DNA from: Parasphingopyxis algicola
Lineage (GTDB): Bacteria > Pseudomonadota > Alphaproteobacteria > Sphingomonadales > Sphingomonadaceae
Length of the DNA: 64,000 bases
Direction: 5' to 3'
Assembly: GCF_013378075.1 (NCBI RefSeq)
Contig: NZ_CP051131.1
Coordinates: 1,302,001 to 1,366,000, forward strand
Notes under the pieces: model-generated
The model's input: only the letters and a program-made list of their open reading frames with translations
Databases searched by the model: none
What the model was told of the DNA's origin: nothing
Shown here: piece by piece, positions 22,679 to 29,302 of the stretch
Layout of the letters: each line of letters opens with the position of its first letter
Numbering within the stretch: position 1 is the first letter of the stretch
Position numbers and translations under genes: made by a program

Positions 22679-23560
22679 ATGCGCCGCTTTGCCCAATTCG
22701 CCTGTTTCGACTGGTCGGGACAGGCGGTGGCAAGGCCCAGGGGCATAGCCCTGGCGGTTACAGGGGCGGACGCGCAAGCGCCCGCCCTTGTCGCGTCCGA
22801 CACCGGATGGTCCCGTGCCGATGCGCTGCGCTGGCTGGAGGCCCGCGCCGCCACGCAAGCCGATATGCTGATCGGCTTCGATTTCTCGGCCGCCCTCCCC
22901 TTTGCCGATCGCGGGACCTATTTCCCCGGTTCTTCAGACAGCCCCGCAGATGCCCTCGCGCTATGGGACAGGATAGACGCATTGTGCGCCGCCGAACCCC
23001 ATCTGTCCGCTTCAGCGCTGCTCGAGGACGCGGAGTTCGCCCGGCATTTCCGCTATCAGGCAGGGCGCGAAACGATCACGGGCAGCCGGTTCGAAGGACC
23101 GCTCGGAAGATTGCGCGTGACCGAGCGGCGCTGCCGCGAACAGAAACGCGGCAACGCCGTTTCCTGCTTCAACCTGGTCGGCGCGGCGCAGGTCGGCAAA
23201 TCCAGCCTCACCGGCATGCGCATTCTCAACCGCATCCGCAGCCGGATACCTGTCTGGCCTTTCGATCCCGTGCCCGCCGCTGGACCATTGCTCGTCGAAA
23301 TCTATACCGGCATTGCCGCCCGGGCGGCCGGCCTCACCGGCCCCACGAAACTGCGCGAGCCCGACCGTCTGGACGCGGCTTTGGCGGCGCTCGAAAGCGA
23401 TCCTCACACCCCGCTCGCCCGCTATGACGATCACAGCACCGACGCGATACTGACCAGCGCCTGGCTGAGACGGGCCGCGGACGATCCAGAGCTTTGGCAG
23501 CCGAAGGATCTCGACGACAGGCTGGCCTGCACGGAGGGATGGACCTTCGGCGTGGCCTAA
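22679..23560 (+). CDS. DUF429-like predicted nuclease-fold protein
   Basis: 293 residues. The opening FACFDWSGQAVARPRGIALAV and the later MLIGFDFSAALPF give the Asp-containing strands of an RNase H-like fold, and the C-terminal YDDHSTDAILTSAWLRRAA with TEGWTFGV matches DUF429-type proteins, where acidic residues on similar strands are presumed to bind metal. No biochemical function is established for the family. Upstream lies the inverted repeat at 22566-22645; no operon partner is clear. Confidence 0.65.
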   Translation: MRRFAQFACFDWSGQAVARPRGIALAVTGADAQAPALVASDTGWSRADALRWLEARAATQADMLIGFDFSAALPFADRGTYFPGSSDSPADALALWDRIDALCAAEPHLSASALLEDAEFARHFRYQAGRETITGSRFEGPLGRLRVTERRCREQKRGNAVSCFNLVGAAQVGKSSLTGMRILNRIRSRIPVWPFDPVPAAGPLLVEIYTGIAARAAGLTGPTKLREPDRLDAALAALESDPHTPLARYDDHSTDAILTSAWLRRAADDPELWQPKDLDDRLACTEGWTFGVA

Positions 23561-23685
23561 ATACGCCTTTCGCGTCGCAGCGCGTTTCGAAAATTACGGG
23601 CCGGCCATGTAACCGTTGCCCCGAGTGCGACGAATGATGGGACGGCATTGCGCACAATGCCAGGTACCATTTGGAGGATGCACTG

Positions 23686-24006
23686 ATGAAAGCCCTATCC
23701 CCTACCCCGCTGAGCATTGCGCTCTCGGCCCTTGCTGTCACCGCCTGTGGCGGCGGCCAGACCGAGCAGACGGCAACCGAAGGCGAAGTAACCGAAGTGG
23801 CCGCAACCGATGCCGAGCAGGAACGATGCTATGGCGTTTCGCTTGCCGGCGAAAACGATTGCGCCGCGGGCCCCGGCACCAGCTGCGCCGGCACGTCGAC
23901 CGTCGACTATCAGGGCAATGCCTGGACCTATGTCCCGGCCGGCACCTGCGCCGACATCGAGACGCCCGCCGGGCACAACGGGTCGTTGGAACCGATCGAG
24001 GCCTGA
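23686..24006 (+). CDS. Bufferin-type RiPP precursor (DUF2282, BufA1-like) with lipoprotein signal
   Basis: 106 residues from the ATG at 23686, with GGAGG 8-9 bases upstream. N-terminal signal peptide ends in [12 protein letters not shown], which fits a lipobox (VTA-C). The core has four cysteines in the DUF2282 pattern: [23 protein letters not shown] and WTYVPAGTC. In characterised bufferins such cysteines are modified by the adjacent DUF692 enzyme to copper-binding heterocycles and the peptide protects cells from copper. First gene of a four-gene operon: the DUF692 gene starts 6 bp after its stop. The lipobox is unusual, since bufferin signal peptides are normally described as ordinary Sec signals. 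Confidence 0.9.
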
Positions 24007-24012
24007 GGCCCG

Positions 24013-24849
24013 ATGAACGCCAGCGCCGGGATCAGTTTCAAGCCGCAGCATTTCGATGCCGCGCTGTCCACTGCGGCGGATGGCCTATGGTTCGAGGTTC
24101 ACGCCGAGAACTATATGATCGAAAGCGGACCGCGCCGCGCCATGCTGGAACAGCTGCGTGCGGCGTGGCCGCTATCGATTCACGGCGTCGGCCTTTCGCT
24201 GGCCGGCGATGCCCCGCCGGATGCCGAGCATCTAACCAAATTGCGCGATCTCGTCACCGCGTTCGAGCCGTTTCTCGTGTCCGAACATCTGGCCTGGTCG
24301 CGGTTCGGCGATACCTGCTTTCCAGACCTGCTGCCCTTCCCGCGCAGCGCCGAAGCGCTCGACCGGATCACCGCCAATATCAACATCGTACAGGATGCGC
24401 TCGGACGCGCGATCCTGATCGAAAATCCGTCGCTCTACATGGCGCTCGACGGCCACGAGATGGAAGAGACCGAGTTTCTCAACACATTGGCCTATCGCAC
24501 GGGCTGCGGCCTGCTCGTCGATGTCAACAACGTCCATGTCAGCGCCAACAATATGGACTTCGATCCGCGCGCCTATCTCGCGACTATCGATCATGCCGCG
24601 ATTGGCGAGATCCACCTCGCCGGTCACGGCGTCGATCCGGCGCTGGGCGACGCACTGCTGATCGACAGTCACGACGCGCCCGTAGCCGAAGCAGTCTGGG
24701 AGCTGTACCGCGATTTGATCGCCGAAATCGGCCCGCGCCCGACGCTGATCGAGCGCGACGGCAATGTTCCGGAGTTCGAAGCGCTGATCGCCGAACGCGA
24801 CCGGGCTGCGGCAATTCTCGCGCACCAGCGCGAACCCGTCCATGCCTAG
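24013..24849 (+). CDS. DUF692 multinuclear iron RiPP-modifying enzyme (BufB/MbnB-like)
   Basis: 278 residues, TIM-barrel of the DUF692 family. Metal-ligand motifs of MbnB relatives are present in order: WFEVHAENYM, SIHGVGLSLAG, VSEHLAWSRF, LIENPSLYM, LLVDVNNVHVSANN, GEIHLAGHG, LIDSHDAPV and LIERDGNVPEF. Family members use two or three irons and O2 to convert cysteines of a precursor peptide into oxazolone/thioamide or thiooxazole groups. The substrate here is almost surely the DUF2282 peptide immediately upstream. Its last 8 bases overlap the next gene. Confidence 0.94.
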   Translation: MNASAGISFKPQHFDAALSTAADGLWFEVHAENYMIESGPRRAMLEQLRAAWPLSIHGVGLSLAGDAPPDAEHLTKLRDLVTAFEPFLVSEHLAWSRFGDTCFPDLLPFPRSAEALDRITANINIVQDALGRAILIENPSLYMALDGHEMEETEFLNTLAYRTGCGLLVDVNNVHVSANNMDFDPRAYLATIDHAAIGEIHLAGHGVDPALGDALLIDSHDAPVAEAVWELYRDLIAEIGPRPTLIERDGNVPEFEALIAERDRAAAILAHQREPVHA

Positions 24850-25597
24850 CCTCGCCGAATTCCAGGCCGGTTTCACCCACGACCTGGTCCGCGACCAGCC
24901 ACCCCAGTCCGGCCCGTTCGCCAGACCCGCTTTCGCTGTTTATCGCAACACTTGGCGCAAGGCGCTGCGCGAGGCGCTGCGCGCCAATTATCCGGTCGTG
25001 GCCGCGTTGATCGGCGAGGAAGTCTTTCACCGGCTGGCATCCGAATATATCCGCAAAGCCGCGGCGCGATCGCCGATACTGGCCGATTATGGTGCCGGTC
25101 TCGACGAGACGATCGCGGCCAGCCAGCTCCACGGGATGCTTCCCTATCTCGCCGACATGGCCCGCCTCGAACGGCTGGTGACCCAGGCCCGCAATGCGGC
25201 CGCCGCCGAGCCGATCGGGCCGGACTTCTTCGCGACGCTTGCCCCCGACCGGGCGGAGCGCGTCTGGCTCAATCCCGTTCCGTCGGCGCATCTTGCGCGG
25301 TTCCCGACCCCGGTCGTCACGATTTGGCGCGCGCATCAGGGCCCGGATCAACCCAAATCGCTGTCGCCGGACTGGCGGAACGAGCAGGCGCTGATCGTTC
25401 AGCGCGGAACGGCCGTCGCCATCGACCCGCTCGATCGAGCGAGTTTCGATTTCGCTGCGATGCTCGTGGCCGGCAACCCGTTGGGAGTCGCCGCTACCGA
25501 TACGATCGCCCGTCATCCGGACGCCGACATCGCCGCCATTTTGACGCGCGTTGCACGAAGCGGCGCCTTCACCATCAACCGAGAGGACAATCCATGA
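24842..25597 (+). CDS. DUF2063-containing RiPP recognition partner (BufC/MbnC-like)
   Basis: 251 residues. The N-terminal ~90 residues match the DUF2063 putative DNA-binding/partner domain: [49 protein letters not shown]. The C-terminal half has the MbnC-like tail with VRLNPVPS-type and VWRAHQ-type segments ([21 protein letters not shown]). It forms a complex with the DUF692 enzyme and recruits the leader of the precursor. Start overlaps the previous stop (ATGCCTAG) and its own stop overlaps the next start (ATGA), so translation is coupled. Confidence 0.92.
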
Positions 25598-26055
25598 CCG
25601 CCGAGACCGCTGCCGCCACTTCTTCCTCCCTCCTCGCTCCGTTCCGCTGGCTTGCCGCGATGGGCGAGAGACTACCCGACGGGCTGATGCCGCTGCTCCA
25701 GAGGCTCGCGATTTCCGGGGTGTTCTGGCTGTCGGCGCGCACCAAGGTGGAGGGTCTCTCGATCAAGGACAGCACCTTCCTGCTGTTCGAACACGAATAT
25801 GCGCTGCCGATCGTTCCGTCCGATTTTGCCGCCGTCGTCGCGACGATCGCCGAACATCTGTTCCCGATCTTGCTCGTACTCGGCCTGTTCACCCGGCTGT
25901 CCGCGACGGCGCTCCTCATCATGACCCTGGTGATCCAGTTCCTCGTCTATCCAGGCGCCTGGGCGCTTCACCTCACCTGGATCGCGATCCTCGTGCCTTT
26001 GATCGCGCGGGGCGGCGGCGCGCTTTCGCTGGACCGGCTGCTCAAAATACCCTGA
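25594..26055 (+). CDS. DoxX-family membrane protein of bufferin operon (BufD-like)
   Basis: 153 residues with four predicted transmembrane helices (~33-50, 75-98, 100-122, 126-145) and the DoxX wording [15 protein letters not shown] and [19 protein letters not shown]. DoxX proteins regularly end bufferin operons; their role (redox, export or membrane anchoring) is not settled. Its ATG overlaps the stop of the DUF2063 gene by four bases. Confidence 0.92.
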
Positions 26056-26126: not shown

Positions 26127-26202
26127 GCCGGATTAGCTCAGCTGGTAGAGCAACCGCCTTGTAAGCGGTAGGTCGTCCGTTCGAGTCGGACATCCGGCAC
26201 CA
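26127..26202 (+). tRNA. tRNA-Thr (anticodon TGT)
   Basis: 76 nt: acceptor GCCGGAT/ATCCGGC, D-arm GCTCAGCTGGTAGAGC, anticodon stem ACCGC/GCGGT with loop CTTGTAA (anticodon TGT), T-arm GTCCGTTCGAGTCGGAC, discriminator A and encoded CCA. An AT-richer accessory region with broken Rhs genes and an insertion sequence begins right after it. Confidence 0.97.
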
Positions 26203-26478: not shown

Positions 26479-27643
26479 GGCACATCCGATGCGCTCTACA
26501 ATCTGCGCTATGATGGTCTCGGCCGGCTCTACCGGACCTGGGGCAATGGCCCAGAAAGCGTAATGGGCGAGCACCTATTACACCTATGACGGCGATGCGC
26601 TGATCGCCGAATACAGCCATGGGGGCGCGCTGCTGAGGCGCTATGTCCACGGGCCGGGCGTGGACGATCCGCTGCTCTGGTATGAGGGCTCCAGCACGGC
26701 CGCCTCGAACCGTCGCTTCCTCCATGCCGACGAGCGCGGCTCGATCATCGGGATCAGCGACAATGCGGGCACGGTTCTCGAACGCAACACCTATGACGAC
26801 TGGGGCATCCCGTCGCCGGGCAATATCGGCCGGTTCGGCTATACCGGCCAGATGCGTCTGAATGCGATCGGGCTCAACTATTACAAGGCCCGCATGTACT
26901 CGCCGAGCCTCGGCCGGTTCATGCAGACCGATCCCATCGGATATGACGACGGCATGAATATGTATGCCTATGTCGGGAACGATCCGTTGAACGCGACGGA
27001 TCCGACGGGGGCGTATGAATGTACGGCTAATAGGGATCAATGCAATGCAGTGGCATCATCCGTAAGACGGATAAGGCGGATAGGAAACTCGATGCGCCAC
27101 GAAGGTTCAAGGATAAGAACCAGAGTGGGAAATCAACTGGTAGCTACTGCCGATCATCTAGGCAGTGCGGGTGATGGCAACGGCGTCACGATTGGCAACT
27201 TTGACTTGGATAATGGGGCTGGTGAGGATGCCTCATCTGCCACGGGCTCAGCCACCAGCGCTACAAACATCAATGTTGATTTCGGTCAGATTTCCGGGCC
27301 AAGCGCAGATATGTTATCATCTCACAATTCGCATTTGAGTCGGGGACAGGTGGAGGAGTATAATTTGACGGCCACACTCGTGCACGAAGGTACCCATGCG
27401 CGACAATTTGCAGCTGGATTGTCGTTTGGTAGCGCGCCGGACGTCACGCGAAGAGAATTGACGGCTTATTACTATGAAAGCGTTGTGGTGCGCCAGCTTG
27501 GTTTCACTACCGGTCTTTGGCGGCCAGGGATGACCGGACAAGCAATTAACAGGGGGATAAGGCGTGGCGCGCTCAATTCTTGCGCAATGACTCAGGCAAT
27601 AAGAGGAAGAAACCCTCTTCCCGGAAATTGTCGATGGCAGTAG
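26479..27643 (+). pseudogene. Rhs 3' fragment with C-terminal HEGTH metallopeptidase-like toxin tip
   Basis: The 5' part of the rhs gene is missing. YD-repeat sequence (LYNLRYDGLGRLYRTWGNG) starts at about 26490 in one frame, ends at a TGA at 26585-26587, and continues in another frame after the TAA at 26561 as [20 protein letters not shown]. The Rhs core then reads [20 protein letters not shown] and ends [10 protein letters not shown] at ~27010. The ~210-residue tip beyond is AT-richer; it contains [11 protein letters not shown] (27377-27409, an HExxH zinc-ligand motif) and ~20 residues later [10 protein letters not shown], a plausible third ligand, as in gluzincin-type toxins. No signal or start is visible, so it may be silent unless recombined onto an intact Rhs gene. 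Confidence 0.75.
26492..26680 (+). repeat. Rhs core direct repeat, copy 1
   Basis: 189 bp from CGCTCTACAATCTGCG to GTGGACGATCCG..CTCTGG, matching 29745-29933 base for base except for scattered substitutions and with identical length. Copies this close allow recombination that would swap the sequences downstream of the core. Confidence 0.85.
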
Positions 27644-28143
27644 CTCGTGTTTCGGTTTTCCTTATCACTTGCTTGGCCTTGTATGGTTGCGAGCAGGATA
27701 ATGGCGAAGTGAATCTCGCGTGCTGGTTGGAAGGGCAGGAAAACCAGTCAAATGACGATGTATACCACATTCACGGATCAATTATCGCAATTCCGGGCTT
27801 TTCTGTTCTGTTAGTGTCGGACGAATGTCCGGAAGAGAGGCTTGGGTTGAGCGCCAACACGGCCCGAGGCGCCGAAATTATTAGAGAGTTGAGGCCAAAT
27901 TGCCTAGATGAACCTTGTGACCAAGCGCTCTACGGATATCGTGGAGAATTCGAGGGCCGGTTTGTGACACATTCGCCGAATGAAGACTCAGCTTGCCATT
28001 TCAGCTCTGCGTTCGAAATGTCTAGAATCATCCATATTCAACCGGTACCAGAAAACGAAATTACTCAAGTTTTTGAAAGATCTGTCGAAGCTTCGCGAAG
28101 CGCCCGCCCGCAAGAAGAAAGTGATGATCTCTGCGTTTTCTGA
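27634..28143 (+). CDS. Putative lipoprotein, candidate immunity/inhibitor for the Rhs metallopeptidase tip
   Basis: 169 residues from the ATG at 27634, which overlaps the last 10 bases of the toxin-tip frame. The N-terminus [19 protein letters not shown] is a lipoprotein signal with lipobox LYG-C. The mature part has six further cysteines (ACW, DEC, NCL, PCD, ACH, LCVF), hinting at disulfides in the periplasm. No known family recognised. Position directly behind a polymorphic-toxin tip, overlapping start, export signal and matching low GC make an immunity role the best inference; it is not demonstrated. An independent small lipoprotein is the alternative. Confidence 0.6.
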
Positions 28144-28258
28144 ATAGAGGGATTACGGTGATGGTGTGGACGGCGCTCTGTTGAGGGTTTGATTCGGGTA
28201 TTCCGGTCCTCCACGGCATGTGTTGTCGTTGAACAACCTGCCAATGGAGCACCGTCCG

Positions 28259-29302
28259 ATGCCGAAATTACCATCCGATTTGTCGTCTGTCACTGTTGTT
28301 GGTCTCGATCTGGCCAAGCATGTTTTCCAGGTTCATTGTGTTGATACGGAAGAGCGGATTGTTGTGGCGCGCTCGCTTCGCCGTTCGCAGTTATTGCCAT
28401 TTTTTGCCTCGTTGCCGCCGTGCCGGGTTGGCCTTGAGGCGTGCGGGTCCGCGCATCACTGGGGCCGGGCGCTGATGGCGCTGGGTCATGATGTGAAGAT
28501 GATGCCGCCAGCCTATGTAAAGCCATACGTCAAACGCCAGAAGAACGATGCGGCTGACGCAGCGGCGATCTGCGAGGCGGTCACCCGGCCCTCGATGCGG
28601 TTCGTGGCTGTGCGCAGTATCGAGAACCAGGCCGCGCTGATGGTGCACAAGGTGCGCGAGATGCTGGTCAGTCAGCGCACCCAGCTCCTGAACATACTGC
28701 GCGGTCATCTCGCGGAGGCTGGCGTGATCGCGGCCCAAGGGGCGTGTCACGGGCGGGCACTGGCGGCGCTGATCGAAGCTGATCATGAAGATGTGCCCGC
28801 CAGTGTTGCCGAAGCGCTGATGCCCGTGGTCGAACAGTTGCACCATCTCGACGCGGCCATCGCCGCATCCGACAGGGAGATCGCGGCAGCCGCCAAAGCC
28901 TGCCCGCAGGCAAGGCTGCTGATGTCGATACCGGGCATCGGGCCGCTCAGCGCCTCGGCACTTGTTGCTACCATCGCAGAGGGCGGTATCGACCAGTTCT
29001 CCGGCCCAAGGGAGTTTGCGGCGTTCCTCGGACTGGTGCCACGGCAACACTCGTCGGGCGGCAAGGAACGTCTCGGGCGCATTACCAAAATGGGCAATGG
29101 CTATATCAGGAAACTGCTTGTCGTGGGCGCGCATGCGGTTCTCCACCATGCAGCGAGGCACAGTGACCCGTTACGCAAATGGGCCAAGGCATTGCTGGCC
29201 TCCAAGCCGTTCAAGCTGGTCGCCGTCGCGCTTGCCAACAAGCTCGCCCGAATAGCCTACGCCATTCTCGCGAGCCAGAAGCCTTACACCGCCGCTGCGT
29301 GA
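28259..29302 (+). CDS. IS110-family (IS1111 group) transposase/recombinase
   Basis: 347 residues from the ATG at 28259 (28244 also possible). The N-terminal DEDD RuvC-like domain has VVGLDLAKHVFQVH and later KNDAADAAAICEA; the C-terminal Transposase_20 domain has LMSIPGIGPLSASALVATI, FSGPREFAAFLGLVPRQHSSGGKERLGRITKMGNGYIRKLL region and the Ser-containing SSGGK motif that holds the nucleophile. The frame is intact, so the element may be active. These recombinases are guided by an RNA made from the element. Confidence 0.95.
   Translation: MPKLPSDLSSVTVVGLDLAKHVFQVHCVDTEERIVVARSLRRSQLLPFFASLPPCRVGLEACGSAHHWGRALMALGHDVKMMPPAYVKPYVKRQKNDAADAAAICEAVTRPSMRFVAVRSIENQAALMVHKVREMLVSQRTQLLNILRGHLAEAGVIAAQGACHGRALAALIEADHEDVPASVAEALMPVVEQLHHLDAAIAASDREIAAAAKACPQARLLMSIPGIGPLSASALVATIAEGGIDQFSGPREFAAFLGLVPRQHSSGGKERLGRITKMGNGYIRKLLVVGAHAVLHHAARHSDPLRKWAKALLASKPFKLVAVALANKLARIAYAILASQKPYTAAA

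Follow-up and report, generated by a model that had tools for sequence, protein, structure and literature searches.

A candidate sigma-F-controlled operon for a predicted lipoprotein-type Buf1 bufferin in Parasphingopyxis algicola

In bufferins, two central Cys residues are modified and the two outer ones form a disulfide, as described in the main text of PMC12452194 (2025). That text reports predicted lipoprotein signals for ~16% of the Buf2 bufferins and gives no corresponding figure for the Buf1 group. According to the main text of a 2025 preprint (PMC12636315), SPII signals occur in a subset of the bufferins and of the oxazolins, and mass spectrometry showed tri-acylation of NedA, a copper-type EGKCG peptide modified by an MNIO. 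As for regulation, GTAACC-N16-CGAA is the sigma-F motif of the Caulobacter DUF2282 operons, both promoters of which were mapped by 5' RACE (PMC3511200).

The window, i.e. the whole 64,000-nt stretch of P. algicola DNA analysed here (C1:1302001-1366000 of the genome labelled G000), contains a four-gene bufferin operon on the forward strand (window positions 23686-26055). Its first gene, bufA (23686..24006), codes for a 106-residue DUF2282 (Buf1) precursor with a lipobox (PF10048, 87.3 bits, 6.5e-25; alignment A1), and a GGAGG Shine-Dalgarno sequence can be read in front of it (23673..23677). After a gap of 6 bp comes bufB (24013..24849), coding for an MNIO (DUF692) enzyme that matches PF05114 (319 bits) and passes the 310-bit cut-off of NCBIfam NF050167 (MNIO_BufB) at 351 bits. 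It overlaps by 8 bp with bufC (24842..25597), whose product is the DUF2063 partner protein (PF09836, 67.9 bits), and bufC in turn overlaps as ATGA with a gene for a DoxX membrane protein (25594..26055; PF07681, 58.1 bits) that matches NCBIfam HvfX weakly, below cut-off. The coordinates and families thus agree with the bufferin set with coupled starts put forward in the preliminary description, the starts being 6 bp apart or overlapping, and a BufB-type MNIO adjoining a DUF2063 partner is as expected of a Buf1 cluster. Because bufA is the sole DUF2282 match in the genome and lies directly 5' of bufBC, its lipobox-bearing product would be the evident substrate of BufBC.

A tRNA-Thr gene (26127-26202) lies downstream of the operon. 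Two genomes of the same genus, G075 and G143, contain neither DUF2282 nor MNIO genes. In G143, a mechanosensitive-channel gene, the gene next to it (window 22679-23560) and tRNA-Thr form an uninterrupted row: 25 bases separate the second gene from the tRNA, at the place where the window carries the operon. The operon was either gained in the window genome or lost in G143. On the 3' side of the tRNA gene, the window contains what look by eye like a fragment of an RHS-like gene and a transposase of the IS110-like type (26660-29302), and G143 has a different gene after the tRNA.

The first 20 residues of the bufA precursor (23686..23745) are predicted to form a lipoprotein-type signal peptide, based on the lipobox rule and on conservation in relatives. 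The preliminary description had remarked on the sequence VTA-C21-GGG at the end of this signal, ahead of the four core Cys residues. The lipobox is real by a PROSITE-type rule, our own sequence patterns of this type being the basis on which precursors were classified throughout, and the forms that carry it cluster on a tree of the cores (see below). The precursor also has Lys at position 2 in the n-region, a hydrophobic stretch and a Cys within residues 15-35. Cys21 (codon 23746..23748; alignment A1) would be both the lipid-attachment site and the N-terminal residue of the mature peptide, with Gly at +2. Positions -3 and -2 of the lipobox are occupied by Val and Thr, acceptable residues but not the most frequent ones; VTA occurs in 1 of 36 lipobox forms. 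Profile matches identified lgt (PF01790, 3.6e-80) and lspA (PF01252, 1.3e-37) in the genome. Among the 36 lipobox forms, the residue at +2 is Ser in 21, Gly in 12 and Glu, Thr or Asp in one each. In Escherichia coli the +2 residue determines lipoprotein sorting, and by that rule nearly all lipobox-bearing Buf1 proteins (hereafter lipo-Buf1) would go to the outer membrane.

Residues 22-47 (23749..23826) make up an acidic linker that comparisons of length and charge, together with pLDDT values, predict to be a disordered tether. It leads to the four-Cys bufferin core (23827..23949), in which Cys48, Cys59, Cys67 and Cys88 are invariant in A1. The AlphaFold2 model of the precursor, with a mean pLDDT of 60, is too weak to support a fold search: most values are <50 across residues 20-39, and part of the core reaches ~90. 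The linker between lipid-site Cys and core, mostly acidic, spans 17-48 residues (median 30) in the lipo forms, versus 3-11 in the ordinary Buf1 proteins of the family (Mann-Whitney p 3e-18, related sequences being treated as independent). The net charge of the core likewise differs, with medians of -6 and +6, respectively (p 1e-17, with the same treatment). Both traits lie outside the definition of the lipo forms.

We sampled whole genomes for DUF2282 proteins at three taxonomic levels, namely the family of the window genome, its order and its phylum. Of the 224 precursors sampled first, 40 contain a Cys N-terminal to the core; the pattern assigns 36 of them to the lipobox forms, and inspection by eye adds another, L026. 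The lipid-site Cys is aligned in 27/27 lipo-Buf1 rows of A1, which were selected for the lipobox. The preliminary description had proposed to check how many DUF2282 proteins share this Cys: in the same GTDB family, the lipobox form accounts for 36 of 122 proteins and occurs in 31 of the 84 DUF2282-bearing genomes and 14 of 36 genera. The protein of locus L066, with an LWG-C lipobox missed by the pattern, was counted by eye only and is outside the 31. By the same rule, the form was found in 0/99 genomes sampled outside the family elsewhere in the phylum. Named records add lipobox DUF2282 proteins in Erythrobacter, including E. ani and E. crassostrea, and one with a short linker in an alphaproteobacterial MAG (L246). 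Given this distribution across relatives and the linker, we reject the idea that the lipobox is a chance Cys.

The gene layouts are diverse. Lipo and ordinary Buf1 genes are adjacent in 8 genomes and two lipo genes in 5; a lipo gene stands alone 5' of BufB in the window genome, G083, G283 and G267, and 14 genomes have a lipo gene with no neighbouring MNIO gene. Where lipo-Buf1 is encoded far from the MNIO gene, modification would take place in trans or be absent. All 20 genomes with four-Cys lipo-Buf1 that were checked harbour an MNIO gene, distant from the lipo gene in 18 of them and adjacent in G267 and G283. Conversely, the DUF2282 lipoproteins of G052 and G129 (loci L065 and L066) are devoid of both central Cys residues and retain the lipobox (by rule in G052, by eye in G129), and no MNIO was found in these two genomes. 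This loss of central Cys and MNIO probably represents one event in one genus. A common divergent layout was observed in the loci of family f1 (e.g. L002-L006), where ordinary Buf1 faces a Buf2-type precursor on the other strand and a BufB-like gene lies opposite Buf1.

An ordinary soluble bufferin would result if signal peptidase I cut the bufA precursor at VTA-C or close to it; the mature N-terminus would then carry a free Cys or no Cys, and the lipobox resemblance would be accidental. Both ALA-V (residues 15-17) and VTA-C (18-20) are possible signal peptidase I sites in principle, and none of the DUF2282 precursors sampled from whole genomes outside the family passes the same lipobox rule. 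Nevertheless, the Cys recurs at the same place in 14 genera, together with a linker absent from the ordinary forms, and we regard a soluble peptide as quite unlikely. It is highly improbable that Cys21 instead binds metal as a fifth ligand or is modified as a third target of MNIO. MNIO enzymes do act on Cys residues and Cys-rich precursors are usual in the family, according to the main text of PMC12452194, but Cys21 is located at the end of a hydrophobic segment, and the G052 and G129 proteins keep the lipobox although the central Cys residues and the MNIO are gone.

The peptide might also be lipidated and escape BufBC altogether, as a plain metal-binding Cys lipoprotein. The many relatives whose lipo-Buf1 genes are distant from MNIO genes are in line with this idea. 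In the window, however, bufA, the only DUF2282 gene of the genome, lies directly 5' of bufBC, and across genomes the presence of MNIO tracks that of the central Cys residues, which makes an unmodified lipoprotein unlikely. Membrane anchoring of the bufA peptide is thus well supported by the sequence comparisons. The tethering proposed in the preliminary description stands as the best reading, given conservation in 14 genera, the long acidic linker and a residue other than Asp at +2; lipidation and the membrane concerned are the parts of it that we infer.

On the tree of the cores, which is built on few columns and leaves many forks open, the window core falls within a 12-row clade composed entirely of lipobox forms (SH-aLRT 92), and the lipobox label changes 6 times versus a mean of 33 after shuffling. 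The BufB tree places the window BufB in a supported set of five (98), three of which are found beside ordinary Buf1 genes and one of which is unlabelled. The window operon therefore combines an anchored-type precursor with a BufB from a different lineage. We rejected the idea of a BufB lineage confined to lipo forms, since the window BufB groups with BufBs of ordinary precursors and other lipo operons have another lineage. In the g43 genomes, where lipo-Buf1 is an orphan, the MNIO falls in a Buf2-like clade of the BufB tree.

An exact match to the sigma-F type promoter GTAACC-N16-CGAA is present on the forward strand at 23609..23634, starting 77 nt before the bufA ATG. It is the only 0-mismatch site in the window. 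Within the family, the 250 nt upstream contain an exact motif in 21/41 genes for lipo-Buf1 and in 51/87 for ordinary Buf1, versus 1 match in 640 simple single-base shuffles with spacings of 15-17 allowed. The genome harbours sigF-nrsF at ~1772914-1774078, with an exact copy of the motif upstream at 1772615. Genome-wide, there are 16 exact matches versus 6 for the reversed control, so some of them must be due to chance. Motif and sigF-nrsF together place the bufferin operon in the predicted sigma-F regulon. Neither the promoter nor the clade-wide distribution figured in the preliminary description.

Other exact matches were inspected. One lies 59 nt upstream of a gene coding for a 108-residue Cys-rich peptide with a signal-like start, GCCAA repeats and no Pfam match (L314:4202-4528, forward strand; G000:C1 1821201-1821527). 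Relatives with the motif nearby occur in G075 and G055, and weaker matches in G090, G022 and G097. This is possibly a sigma-F-controlled metal-binding peptide; it is unlikely to be an MNIO substrate in general, as G075 and G055 have the peptide and no MNIO. Further exact motifs are found 5' of a divergent gene pair that by eye comprises a methyltransferase and a flavin disulfide reductase (G000:C1:3011676-3012008), and 5' of a gene judged by eye to be glutathione-reductase-like (G000:C1 1449738). The genome also contains a second MNIO gene (L315:4686-6227, reverse strand; G000:C1 186685-188226), whose 513-residue product has a long C-terminal part without Pfam match. Upstream of this gene and overlapping it, an ORF (L315:6128-6442, reverse strand) includes a stretch with Cys, LGCLACCSGWDIRW, as a candidate precursor for this enzyme.

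We consider it likely that the operon is controlled by sigma-F and that its sole DUF2282 substrate is a membrane-anchored lipoprotein acting as a fixed copper buffer. From what is known of the family, BufB and BufC would convert the central Cys59 and Cys67 to thiooxazoles before export, and Cys48 and Cys88 would form a disulfide. The bufA peptide would be exported by Sec, after which Lgt would add a diacylglycerol to Cys21 and LspA would cleave before it. The resulting lipopeptide would probably then be transferred to the outer membrane and sit on its inner face, since Gly rather than Asp occupies +2. There, the 26-residue acidic linker would keep the putative copper-binding core off the membrane, providing a buffer that is fixed rather than diffusible.

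The relatives suggest a broader scheme, for which we see about even chances: a two-compartment copper buffer in Erythrobacter/Sphingomonad-type bacteria, in which one Buf1 is soluble and basic and the other, acidic and on a long tether, is anchored to lipid. The two would be encoded by neighbouring genes or at least within one genome, with sigma-F promoters in front of many of both kinds. The window genome would keep only the anchored form, whose BufB belongs to another lineage. What began as one unusual signal peptide would thereby become a testable, clade-wide design in which the same modified copper-binding core exists in soluble and membrane-fixed forms. The clade permits a clean test of why cells anchor a metal-buffering RiPP, and of whether, in the DUF2282 class, modification can keep ahead of entry into the lipoprotein pathway.

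The closest described systems, as presented in the main texts cited, share several features with this locus. The Buf1 bufferins (DUF2282; Caulobacter CC3254-3257 and CC2907-2905) have the same four-Cys core, BufB, BufC, DoxX and GTAACC-N16-CGAA motif (PMC12452194, PMC3511200). In most of the Buf1 precursors sampled, the Sec signal is an ordinary one and the spacer is short, at 3-11 residues within the family, in contrast with the lipobox and acidic 26-residue linker found here. Buf2 bufferins with lipoprotein signals share the MNIO-DUF2063-DoxX cluster and a predicted membrane anchor, but their cores harbour 6 or 12 Cys residues rather than four (PMC12452194). The DAG-RiPPs DybA and NedA are MNIO-modified precursors on the lipoprotein pathway, as predicted for the window peptide, with chryseobasin-like and EGKCG oxazolin cores instead of DUF2282 (PMC12636315). 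With Buf2 lipoproteins predicted in PMC12452194, and SPII bufferins predicted and tri-acylated NedA demonstrated in PMC12636315, an anchored copper-type MNIO peptide is already known, and the novelty that the preliminary description saw in a copper-binding RiPP fixed to a membrane is not supported. The published main texts do not describe a four-Cys lipo-Buf1 subfamily of Erythrobacter-type bacteria, although their supplements may list DUF2282 lipoproteins. What looks new, judging from the sequences compared here, is a clade of putatively lipidated Buf1 bufferins that often share their genome with soluble Buf1.
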